Position numbers and translations under genes: made by a program. 64,000 bases of DNA from Ilumatobacteraceae bacterium (GTDB taxonomy: Bacteria > Actinomycetota > Acidimicrobiia > Acidimicrobiales > Ilumatobacteraceae), in contig JAOBWK010000080.1 of NCBI GenBank assembly GCA_025463305.1, forward strand, positions 1 to 64,000, read 5' to 3'. Positions 1 through 46,162 of this stretch are shown in pieces (position 1 is the stretch's first letter; every line of letters begins with the position of its first letter). Under the pieces are notes generated by a model. The model was given only the letters and a program-made list of their open reading frames with translations. It did no database searches and had not been told where the DNA came from.

Positions 1-72
1 CTCACCCTCGACCCCACCCGCGACTACCAACCAACCGGCGCACCCAAAGGCCCCACCAGACCCCGAAAATGA
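1..72 (+). CDS. C-terminal 23 codons of an unidentified gene (5' partial)
   Basis: The first reading frame is open from the window edge to a TGA at 70-72 and encodes a polar, proline- and arginine-rich tail ending in RPRK. A strong hairpin terminator follows after 5 bp, as expected behind a real gene end. The rest of the gene is outside the window and the family cannot be named. Confidence 0.45.
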   Translation, partial: LTLDPTRDYQPTGAPKGPTRPRK

Positions 73-77
73 AACCA

Positions 78-101
78 ACCCGGACCTTCGCAGGTCCGGG
101 T
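78..101 (+). terminator. Intrinsic terminator hairpin
   Basis: A perfect 10-bp stem (78-87 with 92-101) closes a 4-base TCGC loop and is followed by CGTTTCC. It directly follows the upstream stop codon. It argues that the phosphatase gene starts downstream of it, not at the ATG at 69. Confidence 0.75.
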
Positions 102-140
102 CGTTTCCGATCTCCTGAGAGATCACAGCTCCCGGCGAGC

Positions 141-1631
141 GTGATCCGAACCCACGGACCGGGAGGCTCGGCGCGGGTGGTGTTCGGCTCGTGCCGAACG
201 GCCGCACCGCACATCGCTCCTTGGGCACTCGAGCTGTCGCTCGATCCGCGCGGCCGGGGCGTCGATGCGCTGTATGCCTACGCGTTCCAGATGGCGCGGC
301 TGCCGGTCGAGCAGTGGCCGGACCTCGCGGTGTTCCTCGGCGATCAGGTGTACGCGGACGACTCGTCGCCGAAGACCCGCGCCCGCGTGCACGCGGCACG
401 CGCAGCCGATCGGGCCGGGCTCGACACCTTGCCGGACGAGCTCGTGCACGGGTTCGAGGAGTTCACCTGGCTGTACCAGGAGTCGTGGTCGCCCGAGCTG
501 GAGCGATGGTTCCTCGCGAACGTACCGAGCGTCATGATCTTCGACGATCACGAGATGATCGACGACTGGAACATCTCTGCGGACTGGGTGCGTGAGATCC
601 GCCGCCAGGGATGGTGGGAGGACCACGTGATCGGCGGCCTGATGACGTATTGGCTTTACCAGCACCTCGGCAACCTCAGCCCAGGTGTCATCCGCGACGA
701 AGGCCTGCTCGCCCGGCTGATGGAGGCCGACGACGGTGAGGCCATCCTGCGACAGTGGGCGCTGGGGTCGGAGGAGTTCACGCCCGTTCCCGGCGGCTAC
801 AGGTTCAACTTCACCCGCGACATCGGACCGATTCGCCTGGTGATGCTCGACGCGCGCAACGGTCGCGTGCTCGAGCCGGGGCACCGGAGGATGATCGACG
901 ACGACGAGTGGCGTTGGGTCGTTGCCGCCTGCGACGCGCCCGTCGAGCACCTCATGATCGGCACCTCGGTTCCCGCCTTCGTGCCGCGTGGCATGCACGA
1001 CCTCCAGGTGTGGAACGAGGCGATCGGCGACGGTCGATGGGGAGGGCTCGGTCGTCGGGTCGGCGAGCTCGCCAGGATCAAGGCCGACATGGAGGACTGG
1101 CCGTCGTTCAACGCCTCGTTCGAAGCGCTCGGTCGTCTGCTGGCCGAGCTCGGCAGCTCGTCGCGACCGGACGCGCCGAGGACCATCGCCGTGCTGTCCG
1201 GCGACATCCACTTCTCGTACGCCGCGCAGATCCACTTCCCGGCCCGGGCGCGGATGGGGAGCACTGCCCACCAGCTCGTGAACTCGCCCATCCGCAACGC
1301 GCTCACCGGCCCGGAGCGCACGGCGATGCACATGGGCATGTCGCGAGGGCTCGGCGTGCTCGGGCGGGTCCTGCGGCGTGCCGTTGGCCGGCGACGGACC
1401 GAGCTCCGCTGGACGATCGATCAGGGTCCGATCTTCGACAACTCGCTGGGCGAGCTGGCGTACGACGGCGCACGGGCGAGGTCACGCGTCCTGCGCGTCC
1501 AACCCTTCGATGAACACGCGGACCCCGCGCTCGACGTGGCGATGGACATCGATCTCGTCGCCGGTGCCCGAGCGACGACGGGTGGCCGACCGGTACGCGA
1601 CCGGCCACGTTGGCGGCCGCGACGACGCTGA
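141..1631 (+). CDS. PhoD-like metallophosphatase family protein
   Basis: A calcineurin-like metallophosphoesterase of the PhoD type, a group that hydrolyses phosphate mono- or diesters using a bound metal centre. Counting from the GTG at 141, FGSCR is at residues 15-19, LGDQVYADD at about 66-74, FDDHE followed by DDWN at about 134-143, and LSGDIHFSY at about 351-359. These are the usual metal-ligand blocks in the right order. The frame is open to an ATG at 69, but that start would translate through a terminator hairpin, so the GTG at 141, just ahead of the first conserved block, is preferred (496 aa). No signal peptide or Tat motif is visible, unlike classical secreted PhoD, so a cytoplasmic relative is likely. 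The true substrate is unknown. Confidence 0.88.
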   Translation: MIRTHGPGGSARVVFGSCRTAAPHIAPWALELSLDPRGRGVDALYAYAFQMARLPVEQWPDLAVFLGDQVYADDSSPKTRARVHAARAADRAGLDTLPDELVHGFEEFTWLYQESWSPELERWFLANVPSVMIFDDHEMIDDWNISADWVREIRRQGWWEDHVIGGLMTYWLYQHLGNLSPGVIRDEGLLARLMEADDGEAILRQWALGSEEFTPVPGGYRFNFTRDIGPIRLVMLDARNGRVLEPGHRRMIDDDEWRWVVAACDAPVEHLMIGTSVPAFVPRGMHDLQVWNEAIGDGRWGGLGRRVGELARIKADMEDWPSFNASFEALGRLLAELGSSSRPDAPRTIAVLSGDIHFSYAAQIHFPARARMGSTAHQLVNSPIRNALTGPERTAMHMGMSRGLGVLGRVLRRAVGRRRTELRWTIDQGPIFDNSLGELAYDGARARSRVLRVQPFDEHADPALDVAMDIDLVAGARATTGGRPVRDRPRWRPRRR

Positions 1632-1769
1632 TCGATCACGCTCGTCGTGGCGCTCGAAGCCGCACTGGTCCGAGCGGTGCGGTGGCACCTGAGGCAGCGC
1701 ACCGTCCGATGCTGCAAGGTTTTCGACAGGTCGAACGCTGGTCGGCTCTCCGCGCCGGTGAGATCCGCG

Positions 1770-2255
1770 TCACCGAGGGTCGCGGCACGCTCTCGATGCC
1801 CGATCGGAGCCGTCGTCGTCGACGCCGGACTCGGCCACCTCGAGTGGCGCAAGGAGCTCTGCGACGAGAGCCCGGACGCGCCGATCGATCTCGTCGCGGA
1901 TGGGCCGCACCGCCGCCACGTCTCGTCCGGCTGGGTCGTCCAGTTTCCAGTCGAGGTACCGCTTGCCGGGGTAGAAGGGGCACTGGTCACCGCAGCCCAT
2001 GGTGATCACGACGTCGGACGCTCGAACGGCTTCGTCCGTGAGTCGCTTCGGTGTGGCTCCGTCGGCATGGAGGTCGATGCCGAGCTCGGACATCGCGGCC
2101 ACGACGGCCGGGTTGATCGTGTCGGCGGGTGCGGTTCCGGCAGATCGGACGATGATGCGGCCGGCGGCGTGGTTGGTCAGCAGTGCTGCGGCCATCTGGG
2201 ATCGGCCGGCGTTGTGGACGCACACGAAGAGGACCTCGGGTCGGGTGTCAGGCAT
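1770..2255 (-). CDS. arsC: Arsenate reductase, low-molecular-weight phosphatase type
   Basis: Reduces arsenate to arsenite in the cytoplasm. The N-terminal P-loop is C-x5-R (CVHNAGRS, Cys12 to Arg18), with a second cysteine pair in MGCGDQCP and the general-acid Asp region in LDDP. The pattern resembles actinobacterial ArsC proteins that work with mycothiol or thioredoxin; which partner is used cannot be read here. The ATG at 2255 is chosen because it directly precedes the first strand. It overlaps the aquaporin gene by 8 bp, so the two are probably translated together. Last gene of the leftward arsI-aquaporin-arsC operon. The product, arsenite, is the likely substrate of the neighbouring channel. 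Confidence 0.93.
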   Translation of the reverse strand: MPDTRPEVLFVCVHNAGRSQMAAALLTNHAAGRIIVRSAGTAPADTINPAVVAAMSELGIDLHADGATPKRLTDEAVRASDVVITMGCGDQCPFYPGKRYLDWKLDDPAGRDVAAVRPIRDEIDRRVRALVAELLAPLEVAESGVDDDGSDRASRACRDPR

Positions 2256-2982
2256 CGGGTCTCGCTGTCGGAGGGTCACGGAAGACGAAGCGGACGAAGG
2301 CGAATGCGGTGAGTCCTCCGGCGGCTTGCATCGCGACGAACATCGGCGCCGAGCGGGGTGCGATCCCGGAGAAGCTGTCCGAGAACATTCGTCCGACGGT
2401 GGCTGCCGGGTTGGCGATGCTGGTCGACGAGGTGAAGAAGTAGGCGCCGCCGATCCACAGCCCGACGGCGTAGGGCACCGATGCAGAGCGACCGGTACGG
2501 ACGCATCCGTTGATGATCAACAACAGCGCGAACGTCGCGACAGCTTCGGAGAGCCACAACGCGCCGGAGGAGCGGACGTGGTGGGCGACTTCGAAGGTGG
2601 GCCGCCCGAACATCGCGTTCGCAACGATCGCTCCGACGCATGCACCGGCGAGTTGGACGCCGATGTAGGCGACGGTGTCGCCGGTGGTGATGGTGCCGTT
2701 GAGCCGATCGACGAGCGTGACGATCGGGTTGAAGTGCGCCCCGGAAACGGCGGCGAACGTCAGGATCAGACCGATCAGGGCTGCGGTGGTCGCTGCCGCG
2801 TTCTCGAGCAGCTGGAGACCCGTGTCGGCGGGGGAGAGGCGGCTGGCCATGATCCCCGACCCGACCACGGCGATGAGCAGCAGCGCCGTGCCGACACCTT
2901 CGGCGACGAGACGGCGCCCGAGGTCGAGACGGAGCGTGCCCGTCCCGGTCTCGATGCCGTCCTCGACGGTCGACCCGGTCAG
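2248..2982 (-). CDS. Aquaporin-family channel of an arsenic operon (AqpS-like)
   Basis: Major intrinsic protein with about six membrane segments and two NPA-type half helices: HFNPIVT in the first half and SIANPAAT in the second. In arsenic operons of this gene order an aquaglyceroporin replaces the ArsB pump and lets arsenite leave the cell down its gradient. The reading frame runs open far into arsI, but that part is a shadow. Alignment with the second copy at 8154-8864 places the first residue at a CTG (2982-2980) that overlaps the TGA of arsI. No ATG, GTG or TTG lies at this position, so a CTG start is inferred. About 244 aa. Confidence 0.87.
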   Translation of the reverse strand: MTGSTVEDGIETGTGTLRLDLGRRLVAEGVGTALLLIAVVGSGIMASRLSPADTGLQLLENAAATTAALIGLILTFAAVSGAHFNPIVTLVDRLNGTITTGDTVAYIGVQLAGACVGAIVANAMFGRPTFEVAHHVRSSGALWLSEAVATFALLLIINGCVRTGRSASVPYAVGLWIGGAYFFTSSTSIANPAATVGRMFSDSFSGIAPRSAPMFVAMQAAGGLTAFAFVRFVFRDPPTARPDA

Positions 2983-3428
2983 CAGCAGCCGCCGTTCGAA
3001 CCAGCGGTCGCGCCGACAGCGTCGGTCGAGAGGCCGATGATCCCGGTCGTGTCGCACCCCATCGCTGGGGCGTCGCCCTTGACGAAGTAGATCTCCCACA
3101 TGTTCTCCGGGCCCTTGATCCACGTCTTGTCCTGGACGGCGAAGCAGCACGACACGTCCTCCTGGATCTCCTGCTCCATGCCGAGTTCGTCGGCGCGAGC
3201 GATCATCGCGCCCACGGCTTCGACGTCGTCGACCTCGACCCCGACGTGGTTGAGCGAGCCGGGCTGGCCCATGCCGGTGAAGAGGATCAACTTCAGCGGT
3301 GGATCGGCGATCGCGAAGTTCGCGTATCCGTCGCGGACCTTGGCGGGCTCGGTGCGGAACAGCTTGGTGTAGAACGCGATCGAGGCGTCGAGGTCGGCGA
3401 CGTTCAGCGCGAGCTGGACACGTGACAT
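2979..3428 (-). CDS. arsI: ArsI/CadI-type VOC metalloenzyme
   Basis: A small vicinal-oxygen-chelate protein (149 aa) of the ArsI/CadI family. Known ArsI cleaves the carbon-arsenic bond of trivalent organoarsenicals. Visible features are the conserved N-terminal YTKLF region, an LNHVGVEV block carrying a metal-ligand His, the vicinal cysteine pair in EDVSCCFAV that binds the arsenical, WEIYF carrying the Glu ligand, and a C-terminal CC pair. First gene of the leftward operon, divergent from arsR across a 118-bp control region. Its stop overlaps the inferred CTG start of the aquaporin gene. Confidence 0.92.
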   Translation of the reverse strand: MSRVQLALNVADLDASIAFYTKLFRTEPAKVRDGYANFAIADPPLKLILFTGMGQPGSLNHVGVEVDDVEAVGAMIARADELGMEQEIQEDVSCCFAVQDKTWIKGPENMWEIYFVKGDAPAMGCDTTGIIGLSTDAVGATAGSNGGCC

Positions 3429-3459
3429 GGCAGGTTCCTCCTTGGGTCGGACGACAGTG

Positions 3460-3512
3460 CATTGACATCCGTCGATGTACTCACGGTATCAGTCGATCGA
3501 CGTTTGTCAATG
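3460..3512. promoter_or_regulatory. Divergent arsI/arsR operator-promoter region
   Basis: Two inverted 8-mers, CATTGACA (3460-3467) and TGTCAATG (3505-3512), face each other and place a TTGACA-like -35 element on each strand. Between them lie smaller palindromes (ACATC-cgtc-GATGT and GTCGATCGAC). This is the only gap between two divergent arsenic genes, so it is the obvious ArsR binding site. The -10 elements are not clear. Confidence 0.55.
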
Positions 3513-3546
3513 GACTACTTCGACGATCGTGGATACAGTTGGTTCC

Positions 3547-3885
3547 ATGCCGACTCGCAAGATCGCGGTGCTCGATCCCATCGCCTGCTGTTCGCCGGTC
3601 CGTTCCTCCGTGCTCGACGAGGCGCAAGCCGTGGAGCTCTCGCATGCGTTCGCCGCGCTCGCCGACCCGGTCCGGCTGCGGATGCTCTCCTACATCGCGT
3701 CAGCCGATGGCGAGGTCTGCGCGTGTGATCTGACCGAGGTGTCTGCACGGTCACAGCCGACCGTCAGCCACCACATGAAGATCCTGTTCGATGCGGGCCT
3801 CGTGAGTCGCGACAAGCGTGGTCTGTGGGTCTGGTACCGCGCCGTCCCGGAGCGACTCGACGCGCTCCGGTCCGTTCTGCGGTGA
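3547..3885 (+). CDS. arsR: ArsR-family arsenite-responsive repressor
   Basis: Winged-helix repressor of 112 aa. The recognition helix region is QPTVSHHMKILFDAGLV and the wing is RDKRGLWVWY. Cysteines occur in an N-terminal PIACCSP block (Cys14, Cys15) and in EVCACDL (Cys58, Cys60), a layout like the actinobacterial ArsR type whose arsenite site differs from the E. coli ELCVCDL-only site. Divergent from arsI and in one transcription unit with arsN downstream. It should repress both units and release them when arsenite or antimonite binds. Confidence 0.93.
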   Translation: MPTRKIAVLDPIACCSPVRSSVLDEAQAVELSHAFAALADPVRLRMLSYIASADGEVCACDLTEVSARSQPTVSHHMKILFDAGLVSRDKRGLWVWYRAVPERLDALRSVLR

Positions 3886-3890
3886 CCGTG

Positions 3891-4376
3891 ATGATCATCG
3901 TTCGATCGTTGACGCAGGCCGACTGGCCGGCAGTCGCAGCGATCTACGAGGCCGGGATCGCAACGGGCAACGCCACGTTCGAAACCAGCGCTCCGGCGTG
4001 GGAGTCCTGGGATGCGGCGCACCTCGCCGACCATCGACTGGTCGCTGTCGACAGCGACGTCGTTGTCGGCTGGGCCGCGCTCAGCGGCGTGTCGGACCGA
4101 TGCGTCTACGCCGGCGTCGCCGAGAACAGCGTCTACATCCACCACGACCACCGCGGCAAGGGCGTCGGGCGTCGGCTCCTCCAAGCCCTCGTTGACGGTT
4201 CTGAAGCAGCCGGCTTCTGGACCGTGCAGACGGGCATCTTCCCCGAAAACCATGCGAGCCTCGCACTCCACGAGGCGTGTGGGTTCCGGATCGTGGGTCG
4301 CCGCGAGCGCATCGGACAACTGGCAGGCGTGTGGCGGGACACCCTCATGCTCGAGCGCCGCAGCGCGAGCGTGTAG
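3891..4376 (+). CDS. arsN: ArsN-like GNAT N-acetyltransferase
   Basis: GNAT fold related to phosphinothricin acetyltransferase; ArsN1 proteins in arsenic operons acetylate the organoarsenical antibiotic arsinothricin. Visible landmarks are AAIYEAGIATGNATFET near the N-terminus, the acetyl-CoA loop in HHDHRGKGVGRRLL, and the PENHASLALHEACGF helix. The ATG at 3891 is used. A GTG at 3882 overlaps the arsR stop as GTGA and may be the true, coupled start, adding three residues. 161 aa. Function is inferred from family and place; general amino-acid acetylation is an alternative. Confidence 0.85.
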   Translation: MIIVRSLTQADWPAVAAIYEAGIATGNATFETSAPAWESWDAAHLADHRLVAVDSDVVVGWAALSGVSDRCVYAGVAENSVYIHHDHRGKGVGRRLLQALVDGSEAAGFWTVQTGIFPENHASLALHEACGFRIVGRRERIGQLAGVWRDTLMLERRSASV

Positions 4377-4414
4377 CGAGCCCGGTTCCGTTGGGTCAGG
4401 GCCGGTGATCATCG

Positions 4415-4461
4415 ACGCTGTCAGCAGATGTCGCGCCACACGCGACATGTGCTGACAGCGT
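4415..4461. terminator. 21-bp inverted repeat, likely bidirectional terminator
   Basis: Arms 4415-4435 and 4441-4461 pair over 21 bp with one mismatch around a CCACA loop. It lies between arsN and the tRNA fragment, 39 bp after the arsN stop. There is no T-tract, so it may instead have belonged to the original tRNA gene's downstream region. Confidence 0.6.
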
Positions 4462-4465
4462 CTCG

Positions 4466-4510
4466 TGGTGCGCCCCCTGGGTTTCGAACCCAGAACCTGC
4501 GGATTAAGAG
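4466..4510 (-). other. 3' half of tRNA-Lys(CUU): attachment-site remnant (attR-like)
   Basis: Read on the minus strand, this 45-bp block is the anticodon loop CTCTTAA (anticodon CTT), the 3' anticodon stem TCCGC, variable loop AGGTT, a perfect T-arm (CTGGG-TTCGAAA-CCCAG), the acceptor strand GGGGCGC, the discriminator A, and encoded CCA. The bases before the loop (CTGGC) do not pair with TCCGC, and no D-arm or 5' acceptor strand follows. Identity to a tRNA therefore begins exactly at the anticodon loop, where many tyrosine recombinases cut. By geometry the integrated element lies to the right and the old chromosome to the left. Confidence 0.8.
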
Positions 4511-4673
4511 GCCAGAAAGAATCTTCCAGACTGTGTCAGACGGTTTCGCTGACCTGCGGTTTCTCGAACCTGAGGGTCCAACCCGTCCGCAATTTTCCAG
4601 TCTGTTCGTCACCGTTCGGCGCCGAGTTGGGCGCCAAGAACCTGCGGTTTGTTGGGACTGGGGGTCCGCAGGT
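4494..4673. repeat. Short repeats beside the tRNA fragment (possible recombinase arm sites)
   Basis: ACCTGCGG occurs at 4495-4502, 4552-4559 and 4640-4647, and inverted at 4666-4673. A second motif, TTCCAG-A/T-CTGT, occurs near 4524 and again near 4595. No gene is visible between 4511 and 4742. Spaced direct and inverted repeats next to an att core are typical of integrase and excisionase arm sites, but this role is inferred. Confidence 0.45.
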
Positions 4674-4742: not shown

Positions 4743-6401
4743 TCACTCGTCAGGTACGAGTGTTCGGACAGCAAGGGTCATGAGATCGGTCAGCCTCTTC
4801 AGCAGATTCTCCCCAAAGCCGCGGGTGGACGGGTAGTCGAGATCGAATGAAGGGATCTGGTGAAACCGGTGCAAGGGATTGAGGCATCGCTGCATCGCGT
4901 AGTCCTCGATCGCCCACCATTCGCCGTGAGCAATGCCGCTTGCCGGTTGGAAGACGTGCCGATACAGCCCGTCGAGTCCGGTGTCGGCTGCCATCTGGCG
5001 GAGGTCCTTGCCCGCGAAGTTCTTGTCGACGGACACCTCCTGGAAGGCCTCACCCCGATCGCCTCCGGTTGAACGCGCCATGGAGTCGATCGCCTCGACG
5101 AGCATGGCTGGCGGCTCCTCGAACGTGGCGCTTAACTCCTCCATCTGTTTCCGGAGGAGCTTTCGCTTGCCGAAGCCGTATCGCTGATAGTTGACGTAGG
5201 TGGCCGGGTCGTTGGTGCTGGCCATCCAGGTGAGCACTATCTCGGTCTCCGCGAGCACTCGCTGACTGCCCATGCCGTGCTCGCCTGACCACAGGTCCGG
5301 GTGCGAAGCCGTTCGGATCGCGGATCTTGCTGCTCGAGCGACAAGGCCACAGATCACCTCATGCTTCTCCGGCTGGTACATGTCGTGGCCGATGTCGTGG
5401 TCCAGCGCAATCGCCAGGAACCTGTTGAACAGATCGGTCATTTGCTCAACGGCATTGGCGGATAGCTCGTCAGCTACTGGATCGAGATGCGGAACGTCGT
5501 CGGCCTCGTTCTCACTCGCAGACTCAGTCGCGTCGCCCACGGCATCGCCGACAAATTCTTTGGGGGCCGCCACCGCGTCGGCCTCGTGACCGTCGACCGC
5601 ATCGTGGTTGCCAATATCCGACAGCCCTTCTTCGGGCATGCAGTCTGTGGCGTGCCAGTTGTGAAGCCAGAACGATCGGGCCCACTCGATGCGCCGAATG
5701 ACGTCGCGTGGGTGACGTTCCCGCGTCGCTCCGTCGTGTGCGAGAAACGAACTGCGTATCAAGGCGCTTGCCATGGCACGGTTCGTTCCGCCCGGAAACT
5801 GCATCACGTCGCTGCGCAACTCGTCTTGCATGTCCAGCTCGCCGGTTAGGAGCGCCCAGCGCAGCACGCTGTTCTTGGTGAGAGCATTGTTGGCTGAGAC
5901 AGCGTCGACAACCGCTTTGGCCAGGACTCCCGCGGCACGCTCGGGCGTCACAAGTCCCTCCGGGTTCCACGGTTCGAAGAGCAACCAGGTGCCGGGTGCG
6001 TCGACGTAGAGCGCCATGATCGCGATCAATTCGGCTGGCACGAGGTGATTCCGATCGGGGCTTGAGCGCACCACCTCCACCACAATCGATCGGTCGGCGA
6101 TCGCGACTGTGTCAAGGGAAGTCAGGCGACCGTCGAAGACATTCGCCCCGTCAAAGTGGTCGGTCTCGAATTTCGCGATGAGCGCATCCTGCAGTCGGTT
6201 GATCGCCAAGATGCCTTCGTCGCCGAACATGCTGCCGACCACGGCGGGCCAGAGAAGGTCCGGCAGGTCATCCCGCACCCAATCTGACGCGCGCAGGTTC
6301 TCGTAGGCGAGAAGGGGTGGCCGATAGATCCGGCCCTCACGGAGGTGACCCTCGAGAACGCCGTCAGGCTGGATTCGTCCGCGTTGTGGTCCCTTCACCA
6401 T
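4743..6401 (-). CDS. Uncharacterised 552-aa protein with HEPN-like C-terminal region (DUF5677-like, tentative)
   Basis: Not recognised with certainty. No membrane segment or signal peptide is seen. The middle (about residues 275-310) is an acidic low-complexity linker. The C-terminal third is all-helical in character, with a GLYRHVFQPASGIAHGEWW block followed by NPLHRFHQIPSF, which resembles the DUF5677 group of HEPN-related domains. The N-terminal half (RPPLLAYENLRASDWVRDDL onward) matches no family I can name. It is the first gene inside the putative element and points toward the att site. The HEPN gene upstream runs the same way, so the pair may be one module. Fewer G/C third positions than neighbours fit acquired DNA. 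Confidence 0.7.
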   Translation of the reverse strand: MVKGPQRGRIQPDGVLEGHLREGRIYRPPLLAYENLRASDWVRDDLPDLLWPAVVGSMFGDEGILAINRLQDALIAKFETDHFDGANVFDGRLTSLDTVAIADRSIVVEVVRSSPDRNHLVPAELIAIMALYVDAPGTWLLFEPWNPEGLVTPERAAGVLAKAVVDAVSANNALTKNSVLRWALLTGELDMQDELRSDVMQFPGGTNRAMASALIRSSFLAHDGATRERHPRDVIRRIEWARSFWLHNWHATDCMPEEGLSDIGNHDAVDGHEADAVAAPKEFVGDAVGDATESASENEADDVPHLDPVADELSANAVEQMTDLFNRFLAIALDHDIGHDMYQPEKHEVICGLVARAARSAIRTASHPDLWSGEHGMGSQRVLAETEIVLTWMASTNDPATYVNYQRYGFGKRKLLRKQMEELSATFEEPPAMLVEAIDSMARSTGGDRGEAFQEVSVDKNFAGKDLRQMAADTGLDGLYRHVFQPASGIAHGEWWAIEDYAMQRCLNPLHRFHQIPSFDLDYPSTRGFGENLLKRLTDLMTLAVRTLVPDE

Positions 6402-7722: not shown

Positions 7723-8143
7723 TGGGCGGGCGAGAGGAGTTCGGTGACGAGTGCTCGGACGCGTCGGTCGATCTCGTCGCGGATGGGTCGCACAACGTCG
7801 ATCCCTTGGCCGGCGGGATCGTCGAGTTTCCAGTCGAGGTAGCGCTTTCCGGGGTAGAAGGGGCATTCGTCGCCGTAGCCCATGGTGATGACGACGTCGG
7901 ATGCCTGCACGGCGGCGTCAGTGAGCTTCTTGGGTGTCGCTCCATCGGCGTTGAGGTCGATGCCGAGTTCCTGCATGGCGTCGATGACGGCAGGGTTGAT
8001 GGTGTCGGCGGGTGCCGTACCGGCGGATCGGACGACGATTTTGTCACCGGCGTGGTGAGCAAGAGTGCGGCGGCCATTTGTGAGCGTCCAGCGTTGTGGA
8101 TGCAGACGAACAATACTTCGGGGATGTGGGCGGGTTCAGACAT
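7713..8143 (-). pseudogene. arsC: Second arsC, broken by a one-base deletion
   Basis: The first 28 codons (CIHNAGRSQMAAALL, with an intact C-x5-R loop) read in one frame. The rest, from HHAGDKIVVRSAGTAPAD to the end, reads in another. The two halves align to the intact arsC at 1770-2255 if one base is restored near 8058-8060. The C-terminal half also has MGYGDECP where the intact copy has MGCGDQCP, so one redox cysteine is gone. Either the gene is dead or the assembly has an indel here. It lies 10 bp downstream of the second aquaporin gene in the same order as locus one. Confidence 0.85.
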
Positions 8144-8153
8144 CAGGAGCCTC

Positions 8154-8864
8154 CTAGCCGGGCTGCGGGTAGATGAAGCGGATGAGGGCGTAGGCGAGCA
8201 GCGCGCCGACGAGCTGCATGGCGATGAACATCGGGGCGGACGATGGCTTGATCCCGGCGAAGCTGTCGGAGAGCATGCGGGCGATCGTGACGGCAGGGTT
8301 GGCGAAGCTCGTCGAGGAGGTGAACCAGTAGGCGCCGCCGATCCAGGCGCCGACGGCGAACGGGACGACCGAGGCTCGGCCCGTGCGGACGCAGCCGTGG
8401 ATGACGAGCAGCAGCCCGATCGTGGCGATGACCTCAGACAGCCACAACGCGCCCGAGGATCGGGTGTGTGTGGAGATGTTGATCGGGTCGAGCTCGAACA
8501 TGACGTTCGCGATCACGGACCCGATGCAACCGCCGACCGTTTGAGCGATCACGTAGAGGATGGCGTCGCGGGTGGAGATGGTGCCGAAGAGTCGGTCGAC
8601 CAGGGTGACGACGGGGTTGAAGTGGGAGCCGGACACCGAGCCGAACATCAGGATCAACGCGACGAGCGCACCGGCGGTGGCGAATGCGTTCTCGAGGAGT
8701 TGGATGCCGACGTCGGTGGGGGATAGGCGCGACGCCATGATCCCGGACCCGATCACGGCAACGATCAGCAGGCACGTGCCGACGGTCTCGGCCACAAGCC
8801 GTCGGGCGAGCGCGAGATGGAGTTCGCCGGTCCCGGTTTCGGGAAGGTCGGCGAGTTCGGTCAC
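8154..8864 (-). CDS. Second arsenic-operon aquaporin (AqpS-like)
   Basis: 236-aa major intrinsic protein closely related to the product of 2248-2982, with the half-helix motifs HFNPVVT and SFANPAVT. It keeps a normal ATG start and an intact frame, so it is probably functional although its arsC neighbour is broken. The start overlaps the stop of the ArsR-ArsC fusion gene as ATGA, so the two are co-translated. It should pass arsenite produced by the fusion reductase out of the cell. Confidence 0.9.
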   Translation of the reverse strand: MTELADLPETGTGELHLALARRLVAETVGTCLLIVAVIGSGIMASRLSPTDVGIQLLENAFATAGALVALILMFGSVSGSHFNPVVTLVDRLFGTISTRDAILYVIAQTVGGCIGSVIANVMFELDPINISTHTRSSGALWLSEVIATIGLLLVIHGCVRTGRASVVPFAVGAWIGGAYWFTSSTSFANPAVTIARMLSDSFAGIKPSSAPMFIAMQLVGALLAYALIRFIYPQPG

Positions 8865-9523
8865 GATGCCACCCGTCCAGCGAATGCTGAGATCCGTTGA
8901 TCGAGTTCGTGGATGGCATCGTCGAATGCGACCTTGGTGTTGACCGCAACCGGGTCAGGGATCGACCAGTGCAGCCACGAAGCTGGTGGTTCGAGTTCCT
9001 CGTGGGCCTGGTCGCAAACGGTGACGACGAGGTCCGGCATCGCCGCTATTTCGTCGAGTCGGCGGGGTCGGGTGTCCGCGAGGGTGAGCTGCGCTCGGCT
9101 GGCTGCCTTGAGGGCTCCAGGGTGGATCCGCGCGGCAGGATGTGTGCCGGCAGACAAGGCGGGTTGCCCGGTTCGTTCGATCCACAGCGCTGCGGCCAGC
9201 TGCGACCGGGCCGAGTTCTGTGTACAGACGAACAGAGCCGGCGTCGCGTTCGGCAGGTGGACTGGCGAGACCGACGCGAACGGCTCGGGCTCGAGGTGGA
9301 CGTAGCGGCGACGACCGTCGCCAGAGGAACGGTGGCGGGTGATCAGTCCGACGCGCTCCAGGATGTCGAGGTGGTGAGCGAGCAGGTTCGACGGCAGCCC
9401 AACAATCGTCTGCAGCTCCATCGGCGCCCGATCGGCCCGCGACAGCTCATCGACGATCGCGAGCCTGATCGGGTCCCCGAGAGCGGCGAATCGCTCGGCG
9501 CGTGTCACGAGATGTTCGTCCAT
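8861..9523 (-). CDS. ArsR-ArsC fusion: repressor domain plus arsenate reductase domain
   Basis: 220 aa. Residues 1-90 are a winged-helix ArsR domain (RFAALGDPIRLAIVDEL, then SNLLAHHLDILERVGLI). Residues about 96-215 are a low-molecular-weight phosphatase/ArsC domain with FVCTQNSARSQLAAALW (C-x5-R) and the acid region SIPDPV. ArsR-ArsC fusions are known in actinobacteria. The regulator half lacks an obvious ELCVCD-type cysteine site, so its ligand may be sensed through the reductase half, or not at all. It heads a leftward operon with the second aquaporin. A palindrome at 9538-9557 lies just upstream of its start. Confidence 0.9.
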   Translation of the reverse strand: MDEHLVTRAERFAALGDPIRLAIVDELSRADRAPMELQTIVGLPSNLLAHHLDILERVGLITRHRSSGDGRRRYVHLEPEPFASVSPVHLPNATPALFVCTQNSARSQLAAALWIERTGQPALSAGTHPAARIHPGALKAASRAQLTLADTRPRRLDEIAAMPDLVVTVCDQAHEELEPPASWLHWSIPDPVAVNTKVAFDDAIHELDQRISAFAGRVAS

Positions 9524-9537
9524 GCAGTCACTGTGGT

Positions 9538-9557
9538 GACTCGATGGTCATTGAGTC
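9538..9557. promoter_or_regulatory. Palindromic operator upstream of the ArsR-ArsC fusion gene
   Basis: GACTCGAT and ATTGAGTC form an 8-bp inverted repeat with one mismatch around GGTC, 14 bp upstream of the fusion gene's start. A further TTGAGT half site follows at 9566-9571. Autoregulation by the fusion protein is the simple reading; binding is not shown. Confidence 0.45.
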
Positions 9558-9626
9558 AAGAACAGTTGAGTGAACTTCGGGTGAATGCCGGCGGATGACC
9601 CGCCGGCACCCATCATTCGATGTAGG

Positions 9627-10037
9627 TCAGCAGCACTGCGACGTGGACACCGGAACAGTCTCGAGCACCGGCTCAGCACCGTCGGCCCAGCCGCTGGCCT
9701 TGTCGGTGATCCCGCACGCCATCGCTGGCGCGTCGCCCTTGACGTAGTAGATCTCCCAATCGTTCTCCGGGCCCTTGAGCCAAGTCTTGTGCTGGACGGC
9801 GAAGCAACACGACACGTCTTCCTGGATCTCCTGCTCCATGCCGAAATCGTTCGCGCGAGCGACCATCGCGGCGACCGCGTCGACGTCTTCGACTTCGACG
9901 CCGATGTGGTTGAGCGAGCCGGGCTCGCCCATGCCGGTGAACAAGATCAGCTTGAGCGGCGGATCGGCGATCGCGAAGTTGGCGTGGCCCTCGCGGATCT
10001 TGGCGGGCTCGGTTCCGAACAGCTTCGTGTAGAACGC
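9627..10037 (-). pseudogene. arsI: Second arsI, missing its first ~17 codons
   Basis: The frame aligns with ArsI from AFYTKLF (residue 18 of the intact copy) to the end, including LNHIGVEV, the EDVSCCFAV thiol pair and a terminal QCC. The start codon, the first 17 residues and the promoter are absent, because the frame runs straight into a truncated arsR on the opposite strand at about 10038-10046. An internal ATG could still give a 105-residue product, but that would lack the first beta-alpha unit. Confidence 0.85.
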
Positions 10038-10045
10038 GGTGGACC

Positions 10046-10323
10046 GCCGACGACGAGGTGTGCGCGTGCGATCTCACCGAGGTCTCCGGCCGTGCGCAAC
10101 CGCCGGTCAGCCACCACATGAAGATACTGTTCGACGCTGGCCTCGTGACGCGCGAGAAGCGCGGCCTGTGGGCCTGGTACCGAGCAGTCCCACAACGGCT
10201 CGACGCTTACGAGCCGTGCTCGCTGAAGACCATCGCGCTCCGTGTGATGACCGTGGATGACGGGCCGAGTGTCGCCACGATCTACGCCGAGGGCATCGCC
10301 ACTCGGAACGCAATGTCCGAGAC
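10046..10323 (+). pseudogene. Truncated arsR fused to a truncated arsN
   Basis: Starts at ADDEVCACDLTEV, equivalent to residue 53 of the intact ArsR, and continues through HHMKILFDAGLV to PQRLDA. The normal stop is lost. The frame then passes through an unrelated stretch into VATIYAEGIATRNAMSET, which matches the first part of ArsN (IYEAGIATGNATFET), and homology ends near 10323. Together with the headless arsI copy this shows that one deletion removed both 5' ends and the shared promoter. Confidence 0.8.
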
Positions 10324-10377
10324 GTGCGGGCATGGCATACATGGATGCCGCCGTCGTCAAGCCGGGCTGGGCGAAGC

Positions 10378-10803
10378 TCACGTGACCGGCCATGCCAGTC
10401 CGCAACGCTCGGCCGCACCCTCGAGCGCCTCGACCAGCCGATCGGTCGAGCCGGCGCACGCCTCGAGCTGGTCTGCGTCGAGAAGCACGACATGTTCGGC
10501 GTCAGTCTCAGCGACGATGACAGGCGCGTTCCCGTTGGCGGCGGCGCGGACCTTGGCTGGCTGATCGTCACGGTGAAAAGTGTCGATGGGCACCGGTATC
10601 CCCGCCCGGCATGTCTTCCATTCGGGGCGTTGGCGCAGAGCGCCATGCGTGATGTCACACAACGAGCAGTGCCGACGACCGAGACGGGCACCAACCCAGT
10701 AGGAAAGCTCTCCGCGCAGGCTGCTGTCGGCGTCGTAGACGCCGATGAGACGCACGATCGGCTGATTCGGTCGCGCGTCGCGTGGCTTCATTCGTAACAG
10801 CAT
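10378..10803 (-). CDS. Conserved protein of unknown function with HCSLCDITHG motif
   Basis: 141 aa from the ATG at 10803 (a second ATG at 10791 is equally possible). The protein begins with a strand-rich RLIGVYDADSSLRGELSYW block followed by GRRHCSLCDITHG, where His and two Cys could bind a metal. I recognise this as a recurring small actinobacterial protein, but no function is known to me. It follows the arsN remnant and is divergent from the CDF transporter gene. No membrane segment or signal is seen. Confidence 0.7.
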   Translation of the reverse strand: MLLRMKPRDARPNQPIVRLIGVYDADSSLRGELSYWVGARLGRRHCSLCDITHGALRQRPEWKTCRAGIPVPIDTFHRDDQPAKVRAAANGNAPVIVAETDAEHVVLLDADQLEACAGSTDRLVEALEGAAERCGLAWPVT

Positions 10804-19194: not shown

Positions 19195-19694
19195 GTCTGT
19201 CCCTGTTCCATCAGCCCACCCGATGAGGGCGTCATCATGCGCTGCGCTCAAGGACCCGTCCAGGCAAGAGACCTTCAATCCTCTGCGGCCGCCCGCCCGC
19301 GCACAGTGAGAACCGCTTGACAAACCCTTGCCGAAATTCAGGATCAGTGGCACCGGCGTGTTCGAGCTTGTCGTGTGCTGATACCGCCAGTGCTGACGGC
19401 GACGGTGGCCGAATGCCGAGGAGCATGATGCGCCAGGTGCCCGCCCGCCGTGAAAACGAGGAGGTGGCGCGCCACCTCTTGGATCCGATCGATGGATCAC
19501 TCGACTGCTCCCGGATCACGAGCGCATGACTTGAGGGATTCTACCGATCGTGGCGATGGCCGGGGAACGACAGCGCGCATTGCTCCTGAGTGCTGCAGTG
19601 TCGCAGGCGCCTCTCGCCTTCGTTCGATTCAAGTGCTGCGCAACGGGTGTCGATGACTTGACGGGCCGTGGTTCGAGTTGAGGGGAGGTGTGCC

Positions 19695-22433
19695 GTGGCG
19701 GAAGATCCAGTCATTCGTGGCCGGTCGCGCAGCATCGTCTCGTTCTTCGTCGGCTTCGCGCTCCTGATCGTCGTTGCGGCCGGCGTCGGGACGTACTTCG
19801 TCTGGCAAGCCACGAGGCGAACCGCGCTCAGTGAGGCCGGGCGAGATGCTGCTTTTGCGGCCGGCGGCGCGGCCGGATCGATCGATGCAGCGGTTCGCGA
19901 TGCGGCGGCGACGGTGTTGACGGCTGCACAGTCATCGGCCGTGCCCCAGGCGATCAGGACGCCGCAGGGCTGCACCCTGTCGTTCGCAGGGGTCGGGCCG
20001 TTCACGGCGGGGCATCTCGATTTCCTCGCCGCCGACGGGCAGGTTCGATGTGCCTCGGAACCCGTCGATGGGCGGCGGTATCCCATTGCCACGTGGTTCC
20101 CGGACCTGCGCGATGGTGCCACCGGGACGGCGTTGCACACCGAGGTCTCCGGCGCGACGGTGCTCGTCGTGGCGGCCGCCGTCCCTGGCGGTGGATATGT
20201 CGCCGCGTTTCTCGATCTCGACGTGCTCGGCGCCGGCCTCGGCCGGCTGTATGGCGGGCGTCGGAACCTCGAGTTCGTGGTCACGAGCGTGGGCAGCGCT
20301 CGGATCCTGGCCCGGTCGGTGGACGATGCGGCCTGGAGCGGCAAGGCCGTCGCCGACACGGAACTGGCTGGCGTCGTCGCCAGCGGATCTCATCTCGATG
20401 TTGAATCCCTCCCCAGGGTCTACGCCAGGGGAGCCACCACGGGCACGCTGCACTGGCTCGTCTACGCCGGAGCGGATCGTTCGGCCGCTCTCGCCGACGG
20501 CGCCTCGGACTTCCGACAGCTGATCGCCATCGTCGCGCTGGCCGTGCTGGGTCTGCTGGCCCTGTTCGTCGGCATGTACCGACGCATCATCGGTCCGATT
20601 CGGGCGTTGTACCACGGGACGCAGATCCAGCGCTCGAGCAACTCCGTGGTGCCGCTTCCACTCACCGGGCCACGCGAGATCGCCGCGGTTGCGCGAGAGC
20701 TCAATGCTGCGATGAGCGAGCTCAGGGCGTCCGAGCAGACCTACCGAGTGCTCTTCGACGGCAACCCACAGCCCATGTGGGTGTGGTCGCTCCGCACCGG
20801 ACGTTTCCTCGCCGTCAACCAAGCCGCGATCGAGCTGTACGGCTACTCGCGTGATGAGTTCCTCTCGATGCGCGTGGACCAGATCGTGCCGAGCGCCCAC
20901 GTCACGCTGGCATCGGTCGAGGACCCGTCAGGGGTGAGGCAGGTTGCTCGCTCCGGGCCGCTGTTGAAGTCCGGACCATGGACGCATGTGAAGCGTTCGG
21001 GCGAGACGATCAGTGCGGAGATCACCTCGGACGACTTCAGCTACCTCGGCCAGCCCGGACGATTCACGATCGTCGTCGATGTGAGCGAGCGGCTCGAGCA
21101 CGAACGGCAGCTCCAACACCTCGCTCTGCACGATGACCTCACGGGCCTCGCCAACCGCACGCTCATCCTCGACCGTTTGGCGACGGCCATCGGCATCGCG
21201 GACCGTGAGTCGAGCGTCGCCGTGCTCTCCGTCGATCTCGACGGCTTCAAGCTGATCAACGAGATGCACGGTCACGACGCCGGCGACCACCTGCTGACGG
21301 TGGTGGGTCAGCGGCTGTCCGAGGAGCTCCGTCCGAGCGACTCCCTCGGTCGCGTCGGAGCGGACGAGTTCGTCATCGTCTGCCCCCGGCTGTCGGACGA
21401 GACCGAAGCGGTTGCCATGGCCAGCAGGGTGGAAGGCATCCTCGCGATACCGATCGATGTCCGCGGCACACCGACGTTCGTGACGGCGAGCATCGGGATC
21501 AGCATGTCGGTCGAGGGATCCATACCGGCGCAACTGGTTCGCGATGCCACCCTGGCGATGCATCGGGCCAAAGAGCGCGGTGGTGACCGCTTCGAGATCT
21601 TCGACGAGGGGATGCGCGAGAGGACCCTCGTCAAGCTCGCGACGATCAACGAGCTCCGCCGCGCTGTCGAGAACGATGAGCTGCGGCTGCAGTTCCAGCC
21701 GGAGATCGACTTCGCGACCGGTGCGTGCAGCGGCTTCGAGGCCCTCGTGCGCTGGGAGCACCCGTCGAGAGGTCTGCTCGCCCCGGCCCATTTCGTGGAG
21801 CTCGCCGAGGAGAGCGGATGCATCGTGCAGCTCGGAGCATGGGTGCTCGATGCGGCATGCCGTCAGGCCGCCGAGTGGATGAGGCAGGGCCTCACGATCG
21901 GCACGATCTCCGTCAACCTGTCGACAAGAGAGCTCGTCCAACCATCGCTCGTCGGCCAGGTCAGCTCTGCGCTGGATCGGTCGGGGCTCGATCCGGGCAG
22001 GCTCTGCCTGGAGATTACCGAGACCTCGTTGATGGAGGACCCGGACGGGGCGGTGTCGGTGCTCGCCGCGCTGCGCGATCTCGGGGTCAAGCTGAGCATC
22101 GACGACTTCGGCACCGGCTACTCATCGTTGCAGTACCTCCGCCGGTACAAGGTCGACTACCTGAAGATCGATCGCAGCTTCGTGTCCGGTCTCTGCACGG
22201 ACGTGCAATCGACAGCGATCGTGTCGAGCGTGATCCAGCTCGCGCATGCATTGGAGCTCTCCGTCGTCGCCGAGGGCGTCGAGGAGATCGGGCAGGCCGA
22301 CATGCTCCGCGCCATGGGCTGTGACCACGGGCAGGGGTACCTGTGGTCGCGCCCCGTGTGGCCCGCTGATGTGCCGGCGCTGTGCAAGCGGCCCCTACAC
22401 GGGCGGCCCCTCGTGTCCGCGGTGCGACCATGA
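19695..22433 (+). CDS. Membrane-bound PAS-GGDEF-EAL cyclic di-GMP protein
   Basis: 912 aa. Two membrane helices (SFFVGFALLIVVAAGVGTYF and ALAVLGLLALFVGMY) flank a 220-residue outer sensor. Next come a HAMP-like link, a PAS domain (YRVLFDGNPQPMWVWSL), a GGDEF domain and an EAL domain. The GGDEF signature reads GADEF with an I-site RPSD five residues before it, so cyclase activity is doubtful. The EAL part has EALVRWEHP and DDFGTGYSSL followed by DYLKIDRSF, so phosphodiesterase activity is likely. The GTG at 19695 follows a GGGGAGG site. Its stop overlaps the next gene's start as ATGA, so two cyclic di-GMP enzymes are made together. Confidence 0.92.
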   Translation: MAEDPVIRGRSRSIVSFFVGFALLIVVAAGVGTYFVWQATRRTALSEAGRDAAFAAGGAAGSIDAAVRDAAATVLTAAQSSAVPQAIRTPQGCTLSFAGVGPFTAGHLDFLAADGQVRCASEPVDGRRYPIATWFPDLRDGATGTALHTEVSGATVLVVAAAVPGGGYVAAFLDLDVLGAGLGRLYGGRRNLEFVVTSVGSARILARSVDDAAWSGKAVADTELAGVVASGSHLDVESLPRVYARGATTGTLHWLVYAGADRSAALADGASDFRQLIAIVALAVLGLLALFVGMYRRIIGPIRALYHGTQIQRSSNSVVPLPLTGPREIAAVARELNAAMSELRASEQTYRVLFDGNPQPMWVWSLRTGRFLAVNQAAIELYGYSRDEFLSMRVDQIVPSAHVTLASVEDPSGVRQVARSGPLLKSGPWTHVKRSGETISAEITSDDFSYLGQPGRFTIVVDVSERLEHERQLQHLALHDDLTGLANRTLILDRLATAIGIADRESSVAVLSVDLDGFKLINEMHGHDAGDHLLTVVGQRLSEELRPSDSLGRVGADEFVIVCPRLSDETEAVAMASRVEGILAIPIDVRGTPTFVTASIGISMSVEGSIPAQLVRDATLAMHRAKERGGDRFEIFDEGMRERTLVKLATINELRRAVENDELRLQFQPEIDFATGACSGFEALVRWEHPSRGLLAPAHFVELAEESGCIVQLGAWVLDAACRQAAEWMRQGLTIGTISVNLSTRELVQPSLVGQVSSALDRSGLDPGRLCLEITETSLMEDPDGAVSVLAALRDLGVKLSIDDFGTGYSSLQYLRRYKVDYLKIDRSFVSGLCTDVQSTAIVSSVIQLAHALELSVVAEGVEEIGQADMLRAMGCDHGQGYLWSRPVWPADVPALCKRPLHGRPLVSAVRP

Positions 22434-24541
22434 CAGCGCCGGAGATGACCGCCGACGACGCGTTCGGGGGCCGGCACTTCGGGAGCGCGAACAACCAGTA
22501 CATCATCCCCTACCTGCGCACCCGAACCCCTCCCGGGACCCTCGACCGAGTCCTCGCGAGGGCAGGTGAGCAACGCTCGCCAGACGTGCTGGTCGATCCG
22601 GGCACGTGGAGCACGTACGACGAGTTCCGCCGCCTGCTGTCTGCATGCGCGGCCGAGCTCGGCGACGAGGTCCTCCCGGAGTTCGGGCTGAACTCGTTCG
22701 CCGACATCTCCACTCCCGACACGGCTGCGATGCTCGCTGCCTTCGGCTCGCCGGCGGCGTTGTACGCCGACATCGGTCCTGCCGCCGCAGGCGTCTCACC
22801 GGTCGTCGCGATCAGCGGACATCCGGTCGGCGAGACCGAGTGGTTTTTGAGCATGCACTTCGAGCCGAGGTTCGAGCCGTTTCGCGAGTACTGCCGCTAC
22901 GCGATGGGCCTCGTGGCGGTCACGCCGCGCCTGTTCGGCTACCAGTCGGCGTCGGTGGTCGAGGAAGCATGCGAGTGCCGTGGCGACCCGGCGTGTGTCT
23001 TCCGCGTCTCGTGGGAACCCGTCGATGAATCGACACGGAGAACCCAGCTGCTCGACGTCCAGGTGCAGATGCTGCAAGGCAGCCTTGAGGCGTTGCAGGT
23101 CACGGTCGGTGATCTGGTCTCCGGGGACGAGCTCGAAGTGGTCTTGGCGCGGATCGTCTCGTCCGCGGCACGTGCCGTGAACGCTCCCGGTTTCGTGCTG
23201 GCGATCGACAGCGCCGTCGAGAGCTCCAAGCGCGTCTTCTCCGACGGCCTCGATGCGACGTCGGCCGCCGCCATCGCCGATGCACTGCTCGGTGGCCGAC
23301 AGCTGACCGATTCACACTGCCTCGTCGTCGAGCTCGCATCACCGCGTCGGACATATGGACGGCTTGCCGCGCTGAAGCCGAATGGAGACTTCTACCCGCA
23401 AGAGCTGGGCACGCTGCGCGCATACGGTCGCCTAGCCGCCGCCGCCCTCGACGCAGCCGCGGCCCACGAGGAGACCCGCGTCCAGGCAGCTCGCGCCGAG
23501 GCGCTCCTGACCCTCTCCATCGCGCTCGCGGAGGTGACCACCTCCGACGAGATGGCCCAGCGGATCGCACAGGCCATGCTCTCGGTCATCGATTGCGATC
23601 GCGCACTCGTCATGCTCGCCGACAGCCCAGCCACCGGACGCGTCGTCGGAATCGCCGGCTATCCGCCCGAACTCGCTGCAGCGTTGGTCGGGCGTTCCTT
23701 CCCGATCGAAGCGAGCCCGGAGGCGGTCGTCACCATCGAACAGTTCGACGAATCGTCGAGCACGGTCCTCTCAGGCGGGCAACGCACGATGACGTGGACC
23801 GGCACGGTCGCAGCCGCCTCCTTCCCCATCGTCTCCGATCGAGGCCTGGTCGGCTTCATCTCAGCCAGCGTGACGAACAGGCCGGACCGGCTGACGGGAT
23901 CTGCTGATCTCGGCGTACGGCTTCGCGGACTCGGAAGCCAGGCACGAACTGCACTCAACAACGCTGCGCTCCTCGAGCAGGTTCGACACCAAGCGCTGCA
24001 CGACGAACTGACGGGTCTTCCGAACCGCGCCCTCATCCTGGATCGCGCCCAGCAGATGCTGGCCAGAGCAACGAGGACGGGCGTGCCCGTCGCTGCCTAC
24101 TTCGTGGACCTCGACAACTTCAAGCTCGTCAACGACACCTTGGGCCACGCAGCGGGGGACCAGATGCTTCGAACAGTCGCCGAACGTCTTTCCGGGATGC
24201 TGCGTTCACAGGACACGCTGGGACGGCTCGGGGGAGACGAATTCGTGGTGCTCGCAGAGGATGAGTCGCTCGATCGCGGCGCCGTCTGGCTCGCCGCACG
24301 GATCCTCGACGCTTTCTCGTCGCCATTTCACCTCGATGGCTTCGTTCGTCGAGCGATGAACACGTCGGCCAGCATCGGAATCGCGACCGGCTGGCGCTGC
24401 GACGCCGACGAACTCTTCCGCGACGCCGACATCGCGCTCTACCGCGCGAAAGCTGCGGGGCGTGGACGCGCGACCGTCTTCGAACCGTGGATGCTCAGCG
24501 AAGCAATGCAGGAGCTCGAGGAGGAGTTCGACCGAGCCTGA
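22430..24541 (+). CDS. GAF-GGDEF diguanylate cyclase with V4R-like N-terminal sensor
   Basis: 703 aa, soluble. The first 200 residues resemble the V4R/heme-NO-binding-associated group: a long sensor ending in EEACECRGDPACVFRVSW, with Cys residues that could bind a ligand. Two GAF-like regions follow, then a complete GGDEF domain (LGRLGGDEFVVL) with the inhibitory I-site RSQD five residues upstream. It should therefore make cyclic di-GMP under product inhibition. Translated with the preceding GGDEF-EAL protein through ATGA overlap. The two probably form a synthesis/breakdown pair with different inputs. Confidence 0.9.
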   Translation: MTAPEMTADDAFGGRHFGSANNQYIIPYLRTRTPPGTLDRVLARAGEQRSPDVLVDPGTWSTYDEFRRLLSACAAELGDEVLPEFGLNSFADISTPDTAAMLAAFGSPAALYADIGPAAAGVSPVVAISGHPVGETEWFLSMHFEPRFEPFREYCRYAMGLVAVTPRLFGYQSASVVEEACECRGDPACVFRVSWEPVDESTRRTQLLDVQVQMLQGSLEALQVTVGDLVSGDELEVVLARIVSSAARAVNAPGFVLAIDSAVESSKRVFSDGLDATSAAAIADALLGGRQLTDSHCLVVELASPRRTYGRLAALKPNGDFYPQELGTLRAYGRLAAAALDAAAAHEETRVQAARAEALLTLSIALAEVTTSDEMAQRIAQAMLSVIDCDRALVMLADSPATGRVVGIAGYPPELAAALVGRSFPIEASPEAVVTIEQFDESSSTVLSGGQRTMTWTGTVAAASFPIVSDRGLVGFISASVTNRPDRLTGSADLGVRLRGLGSQARTALNNAALLEQVRHQALHDELTGLPNRALILDRAQQMLARATRTGVPVAAYFVDLDNFKLVNDTLGHAAGDQMLRTVAERLSGMLRSQDTLGRLGGDEFVVLAEDESLDRGAVWLAARILDAFSSPFHLDGFVRRAMNTSASIGIATGWRCDADELFRDADIALYRAKAAGRGRATVFEPWMLSEAMQELEEEFDRA

Positions 24542-31820: not shown

Positions 31821-31913
31821 ACGATTCTGCGTCTCCTCGACCTCTGCGAACGCGTTCGACCGGAACTGGAGTGCCTTGGCGAGCTCGGTCGAGCACTCCT
31901 CGATGTCGTCGGC

Positions 31914-39321: not shown

Positions 39322-39408
39322 ACACTCCGACGGACCCCGCAACAGCGCTACAGGCGCGGCCGACCCCGATCTCGATGACCACGAACCCTGACCAAAGGAG
39401 CCCCCGAC

Positions 39409-45246: not shown

Positions 45247-45270
45247 GTCACCATCGTAGGCCGATTGGGT

Positions 45271-45334
45271 ACCGATCGGTGTGGTTAGGTTGGTTTGCGT
45301 CGGAGTGAGAGATACGTTCCACACAGATCGGTGT
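45271..45334. promoter_or_regulatory. TetR operator candidates
   Basis: ACCGATCGGT at 45271-45280 is a perfect 10-bp palindrome. GATCGGTGT occurs at 45274-45282 and again at 45326-45334, 52 bp apart, about five helical turns. Both lie between the divergent TetR and SDR genes. Confidence 0.5.
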
Positions 45335-45369
45335 ACATAACATCGGCACGGCGCGAGAATGGAGTCCTG

Positions 45370-46104: not shown

Positions 46105-46162
46105 CCGTCAACAAGACACCACGACCTCACTGACCGACATACCAAACAAAGGAACATACGAC

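Follow-up and report, generated by a model that had tools for sequence, protein, structure and literature searches.

Islands that integrate into tRNA genes by means of a tyrosine integrase leave a recognizable trace, and the Islander catalogue describes such islands as carrying a 3′ fragment of the tRNA gene at their far end and counts tandem arrays of them (PMC4383910). In Frankia, tandem AICEs integrated in a tRNA-Lys gene have been described, and the same work sought actinobacterial T4SS-type ICEs through their integrase, VirB4-like, VirD4-like and relaxase genes and also describes an integrase with an internal stop (PMC3218068). More elaborate arrangements are on record. In Shewanella, the composite genomic island CGI48 occupies a tRNA gene and harbours a further island, GI21, with its own att sites and integrase (PMC8978831), and the tripartite ICE3 of Mesorhizobium has three integrases and three separate regions (PMC5882170).

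Here we describe a 64-kb stretch of DNA (hereafter the window) that looks like a combination of two mobile elements and not a single one, because its conjugation genes have their own unjoined docking site and an interrupted integrase. Composite islands and multi-site ICEs are known already, and the variant found here is the unjoined inner site with an interrupted integrase. The AICEs and T4SS-type ICEs mentioned above presumably come from actinobacteria other than that of the window. No tRNA-Lys or tRNA-Leu elements of Ilumatobacteraceae are named among the literature matches listed.

Like the Islander islands, the window has a displaced 3′ fragment, and its anticodon-loop crossover corresponds to their site A; whereas the catalogue demands an intact tRNA gene and an integrase in the interval, both are outside the view here in the case of tRNA-Lys (PMC4383910). 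Compared with the actinobacterial ICEs sought in PMC3218068, the T4SS genes here sit on a tRNA-Leu(GAG) site, and the TrwC search of the window was negative. The arrangement recalls CGI48 in being an island within an island, but GI21 has both attL and attR, while the window has one attP-like junction and an integrase stop (PMC8978831). If the region is one element, it resembles the tripartite ICEs in having several integrase/attachment systems, but unlike ICE3 it has one visible integrase, which is interrupted, the second being unseen (PMC5882170).

The tRNA-Lys fragment and its arm

On the minus strand at 4466-4510, the window carries a displaced 3′ fragment of a tRNA-Lys(CTT) gene, which starts with CTCTTAATCCGCAGG and ends with GGGGGCGCACCA. 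The fragment is identical at 45 of 45 bases to positions 31-75 of the 75-nt gene, spanning the first base of the anticodon loop through the CCA, and the intact gene is present in 11 related genomes. The best chance matches to these 45 bases were 25/45 in the rest of the window and 28/45 in 30 single-letter shuffles of the window. A first-pass annotation made from the sequence alone had placed a perfect 3′ half of a tRNA-Lys, from anticodon loop to CCA, at exactly these coordinates, with an unrelated 5′ neighbour and no intact tRNA-Lys in view. All of these points held: the match to the intact genes of relatives is exact, the sequence from 4511 onward is non-tRNA, and within the 64-kb window neither ARAGORN nor Rfam at the gathering threshold detects any tRNA. 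On the CCA side of the fragment lies a terminator-like hairpin (4412-4462), a near-perfect palindrome with copies of 80-84% identity at five places in genome G004. A similar hairpin follows the partial tRNA-Leu end of G004 contig C275 described below, and the hairpin is a dispersed terminator-like repeat.

Scanning the contigs of relatives for the exact 45-mer yielded 15 loci in 11 genomes, all of which are MAGs with titles naming Actinomycetota, Actinomycetes, Acidimicrobiales, Acidimicrobiaceae or Ilumatobacteraceae; among the 221 genomes of the family of G004, the exact 45-mer is found in the same 11. Eleven loci are intact, mutually identical 75-nt tRNA-Lys(CTT) genes, and the remaining four (L006, L009, L012 and L014) are bare halves. 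Relatives thus carry intact genes with the same 3′ half, an outcome that supports the scar in the kind of check that the earlier annotation had proposed for the genome of the window itself. A tRNA-His gene is called beside the intact tRNA-Lys in 10 of the 11 cases, the exception being L001, whose stretch begins 80 bp before the gene. A tRNA-Ser called by ARAGORN in L012 overlaps the tRNA-Lys half and was taken as spurious.

Bare halves recur at the boundaries of tandem tyrosine-integrase elements in these relatives. The 19,573-bp contig C96 of G007 (L028, 1-19573) carries nt 37-75 of tRNA-Lys at its left end and nt 29-73 at its right end, and its interior contains an inward-reading integrase gene, an IS110 transposase, a TrwC relaxase and an AbiEii gene. 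The integrase gene adjoins the CCA side and is broken into two overlapping ORFs that match Phage_integrase, and the contig is apparently a complete tRNA-Lys element. The same genome has an intact tRNA-Lys on C78 and halves on C80 and C50, and in G003 an intact gene is accompanied by two exact halves and by a 51-base match at 92%. These loci show tandem accretion at tRNA-Lys in this group. The tRNA-Lys(CTT) gene of these actinobacteria is thus an integration hotspot with tandem arrays, one element of which carries a relaxase. The layout of G007:C96 and G003 is the one described for tRNA islands (PMC4383910) and for the tandem AICEs of Frankia (PMC3218068).

Directly beyond the anticodon-loop end of the fragment is a sequence (4511-4650) that we assign as the distal attachment arm of the tRNA-Lys element. 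Core and arm together are 75% identical, the identical tRNA core included, to sequences in G007:C80 (query 4463-4650) and G217:C41 (query 4468-4642). The arm alone (~140 bp) scores 68 and 55 at these two loci and 17-23 at six other halves, as compared with ≤25 in 1000 shuffles. The arm is therefore common to two of the eight other tRNA-Lys halves compared, and the arms of the remaining six are unrelated. Element-specific DNA starts exactly at the inner end of the tRNA-Lys fragment, the arm being shared from the cut on. On the CCA sides of G007:C80 and G217:C41, blastn similarity to the window does not extend past the core. Given that the arm recurs at tRNA-Lys halves of two genomes, the right side is fixed as the distal arm of the element, and on comparison of the sequences 4466-4510 is the attR-type distal scar of a tRNA-Lys element located to the right. 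The earlier proposals that the element extends rightward from 4511 and that the fragment is the scar of a tyrosine recombinase cutting in the anticodon loop are both borne out, the latter by the intact copies and tandem halves in relatives together with the recurring arm.

Searching the window by tblastn with the tRNA-Lys integrases of G008 and G007 gave best E values of 4.5 and 8.6, and with another integrase, beside the tRNA-Lys in G007:C78, the best was 1.4. As no integrase of the tRNA-Lys type is thus found in the window, the integrase end of the element would lie beyond the 64 kb or has been lost. An integrase match between the window and L013 proved to be a repeat-protein match.

The left flank

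By geometry, the left flank (1-4465) is the DNA that lay downstream of tRNA-Lys before this insertion. Reading leftward from the CCA, the hairpin is followed by genes for an ArsN-like acetyltransferase, ArsR, an aquaporin and a PhoD-like phosphatase, as assigned with Pfam and NCBIfam; the ArsN1a score of 146.7 is under its cut-off of 170. Five relatives (G001, G010, G203, G205 and G208) share the genes downstream of tRNA-Lys, a neighbourhood that in G001 begins with a zinc-binding dehydrogenase. Five left-flank proteins had no match (E≤1e-3) in seven stretches downstream of tRNA-Lys genes or halves of relatives, namely those of the five genomes just listed, G218 and the half in G007:C50, and a tblastx comparison of the five shared neighbourhoods with the window gave no match above 60 bits. 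The CCA side of G007:C50 likewise differs from the shared neighbourhood. The first-pass annotation had taken the left side for the native chromosome, a view that is not supported as it stands, the left-flank proteins having no match in the neighbourhood common to five relatives. "Old chromosome" therefore means only what preceded the insertion, and the left side may represent an island of earlier origin or a flank that has been rearranged.

An attP-like junction and the conjugation-type genes

A second attachment site occurs on the plus strand at 31279-31297, where the last 19 nt of a tRNA-Leu(GAG) gene, including the CCA, stand with no tRNA body. This core is identical at 19/19 positions to the intact tRNA-Leu(GAG) gene at 526-612 of G219:C405. 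An 18-mer of the core matches at 18/18, compared with ≤16/18 in 30 shuffles. Across 29 genomes, exact copies of this 18-mer are present at 11 places, in 10 of the genomes, and every copy is inside a tRNA-Leu gene. To the left of the core is a distal-type arm (P′; 31174-31278, plus strand) of a tRNA-Leu(GAG)-type element, 80% identical, core included, to 516-638 of G004:C275, with GTGGGCT/GGCCCAC motifs at 31239, 31249 and 31258. To its right is the proximal arm (P; 31298-31330, plus strand), which has GTGGGCT/AGCCCAC motifs and aligns, core included, at 78% identity to DNA directly downstream of tRNA-Leu(GAG) in G219 and at 74% in G006. The motif GTGGG[CT][CT] or its complement, which we picked once the sequence had been inspected, has five copies within 31239-31318 and 43 in the entire window. 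Its copies left of the core are spaced (10, then 9) as they are to the right of the core in G219. Among the 221 family genomes, the P′ arm is found in G004 alone and the P arm in G219 and G006, with a match of 21 bp only in G106.

In G004:C275, a partial core (ending CGACAC) comes after the same P′ arm, and beyond it are a hairpin and a gene that by eye looks LuxR-type; another contig of this genome, C21, terminates within the tRNA-Leu(GAG) core. The DNA past the partial core of C275 had no match in 11 stretches downstream of tRNA-Leu(GAG) of other genomes, so we infer the far-end status of C275 from its arm and partial core only. Judged by its matches to other genomes, the junction at 31279 is a P′-core-P arrangement, attP-like and in the unjoined form. 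Such an arrangement with no tRNA body points to a circle junction or a tandem boundary of a tRNA-Leu-type element and not to a simple integrated end. We also considered the region left of 31279 as native DNA upstream of another tRNA-Leu and rejected this reading; in G004:C71 and G219:C137, the gene preceding tRNA-Leu(CAG), which encodes a secreted repeat protein, is a relative at no more than 66-67%.

The core adjoins a tyrosine integrase gene of the tRNA-Leu element (31821-33071, plus strand; PF00589 E=2.5e-12 for its second piece), which shares 82% identity over 403 aa with an uninterrupted 408-aa integrase of G219 and itself contains one in-frame stop at 32295-32297. The gene is probably dead and presumably the one that the earlier annotation called a dead integrase, a call that the in-frame stop confirms. 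No Pfam match was obtained for the preceding ORF (31380-31820), which in G219 forms a gene of its own. Further along the plus strand, Pfam and NCBIfam assign Tad-type pilus/secretion genes at 34814-40016 (a SAF-domain protein, a TadA-like ATPase, two T2SSF-like proteins, the second of which matches under the Pfam cut-off, and a TadE-like protein) and conjugation-type genes at 52942-58169 (a VirB4-like ATPase, a primase-like CHC2 zinc-finger protein and a TraG/VirD4 coupling protein). For the VirB4-like and VirD4-like genes, DUF87 and T4SS-DNA_transf pass their Pfam cut-offs and the NCBIfam scores are under theirs; the CHC2 match is under its Pfam cut-off, and the conjugation-type genes are colinear with G219 at 88%. 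When the coupling protein was compared with plasmids by tblastn, it matched best on a 77-kb Iamia plasmid, with 37.8% identity over 59% of the protein. The TrwC relaxase of G007:C96, the one relaxase protein tried, had no match in the window at E≤0.01. Genes related to this locus are also present in G001, 8-23 kb downstream of a tRNA-Leu(TAA) that has its own integrase, and a TrwC-like match is located there ~12 kb past the T4SS genes.

The segment 31279-57887 is colinear with contigs C405 and C356 of G219 at 85-91% identity. The G219 match begins inside the intact tRNA-Leu(GAG), at its 3′ end, with the Tad/T4SS genes directly on that tRNA. When the G219 locus was compared with 28 other genomes, 22 matched the upstream gene and the tRNA, the matches ending at query 305-316, and at least five of these 22 (G004, G005, G007, G008 and G218) have a contig end within 10 bases; the G006 match extends ~80 bp further, and five of the 28 match only other tRNA-Leu genes. 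Because the matches stop at the tRNA end, the segment looks like DNA inserted at tRNA-Leu(GAG) in G219. The first-pass annotation had taken everything from 4511 to the secretion locus as a single conjugative island, a picture that is not supported in that form, as a separate tRNA-Leu(GAG) core at 31279 marks the start of the unit with the dead integrase and the secretion locus. A 4-kb segment at 43,996-48,021 (TetR, F420-type oxidoreductase, PIG-L deacetylase) is missing from the otherwise colinear G219 copy. A further segment of ~119 bp (58304-58422), one frame of which reads as a small Cys-rich zinc-ribbon-like peptide, is 78-86% identical over 91-128 bases in at least 10 related genomes, mostly away from T4SS matches.

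Genes between the two junctions

The first gene inside the element (4743-6401, minus strand) encodes a DUF5677 protein (PF18928 E=5e-14) and is apparently the HEPN gene of the earlier annotation. A search for it in 18 related genomes returned no match, a result that shows nothing since the search had no positive control. Further right is a second ars cluster (8154-10564), comprising genes for an aquaporin, an ArsR-ArsC-like fusion and ArsR by Pfam and NCBIfam, which is probably cargo of the element. In G004:C156, an ars cluster at a distance of ~15.5 kb on the downstream side of tRNA-Lys shares 79-83% identity with it. The tRNA-Lys half is flanked by paralogous ars clusters, at 2248-3886 and 7734-10230, and the cluster on the tRNA-Lys contig of G004 is nearer to the right copy (79-83%) than to the left copy (75%).

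A GGDEF/EAL gene pair at 19625-24529 is 76% identical to pairs in G004:C208 and G219:C364. These homologues sit in a shared, chromosome-like context, the flanks of which are lacking in the window. The GGDEF genes (19.7-24.5 kb) and Ku (63.4 kb) of the window have neighbouring counterparts in G004:C208, and a simple insertion between the two was considered and rejected. In G219, the GGDEF contig C364 shares the G004 context, and the Ku matches are on other contigs, which speaks against the simple-insertion reading.

Relation between the two units

The tRNA-Lys scar and the tRNA-Leu attP-like junction are 26.8 kb apart. The best explanation, towards which we lean with some reserve, is a composite island at tRNA-Lys that has captured a tRNA-Leu-type ICE whose own site is unused. 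An incoming element with the same 45 bases would have entered the gene when a tyrosine recombinase exchanged strands in the anticodon loop, displacing the 3′ half of tRNA-Lys(CTT) to 4466-4510 and rebuilding an intact tRNA-Lys at its other, integrase-bearing end, outside the window. This element begins at 4511 with its distal arm and probably carries the ars and signalling genes as cargo. A second recombination unit is located at 31279, namely a Tad/T4SS conjugative element with a site matching the 3′ end of tRNA-Leu(GAG); captured in the tRNA-Lys island without using its own site, it would now possibly be mobilised only by an unseen tRNA-Lys integrase. In a composite of this kind, 4511-31173 and 31174-64000 would travel together. 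If the composite is real, the window records a conjugation module switching its tRNA docking site. An unlikely version of the same arrangement is a single actinobacterial ICE that has both a tRNA-Lys and a tRNA-Leu(GAG) attachment system, with the tRNA-Leu site unused, its integrase broken and the docking site of the conjugation module changed; such an ICE would be a step between a composite island and the Mesorhizobium multi-site ICEs. Several observations weigh against a composite: the intact tRNA-Lys, the cognate integrase and the other end of the element are all outside the view, six of the eight other tRNA-Lys halves have unrelated arms, the left flank differs from the neighbourhood that relatives share at tRNA-Lys, and the GGDEF/EAL homologue has its chromosome-like context. 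In addition, the arms facing each other are both of the distal type, and a rearrangement between two tRNA islands would give the same outcome.

Such a rearrangement, which we regard as possible but on the unlikely side, would have joined an island at tRNA-Lys and a tandem pair at tRNA-Leu(GAG) by a chromosomal deletion or inversion within them, leaving two distal ends face to face and both integrase ends and tRNAs removed or relocated. It accommodates the distal type of both arms, the tandem accretion at tRNA-Lys in relatives, the lack of any tRNA in the window and a left flank that is not the shared neighbourhood. A simple deletion, however, would presumably remove the intact tRNA-Lys, tRNA-Leu and perhaps tRNA-His, so that copies would be needed elsewhere. 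Both arms at 31279 also bear the GTGGGCT variant, as the two ends of one element would, but this argument is weak because the G004:C275 arm has GTGGGCT too. It is distinctly unlikely that the contig is chimeric or mixed, a metagenome assembler having joined molecules at the 45-base or 19-base repeat or followed an excised circle; within 64 kb, a chimera would look the same as a composite. Assemblies of relatives do break at or within ~100 bases of these repeats (G007:C96, C50 and C80; G004:C21; G218:C28), but the 19-base core is shorter than the usual assembly word lengths, and the element side of each junction agrees with independent genomes. Excision of a circle would moreover depend on an integrase, and that of the tRNA-Leu unit is interrupted. 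We consider it about as unlikely that the half-tRNA is the fossil of an old, lost element which has no connection with the DNA beyond 4650, a reading compatible with the shortness of the shared arm (just ~140 bp), the chromosome-like context of the GGDEF pair homologue and a view free of tRNA-Lys integrases. Against a fossil stand the alignment of the arm from the cut onward and the ars cluster at 8-10 kb, which has a similar counterpart on the contig of G004 that bears tRNA-Lys. Arsenic genes are close to tRNA-Lys both in the window and in G004.
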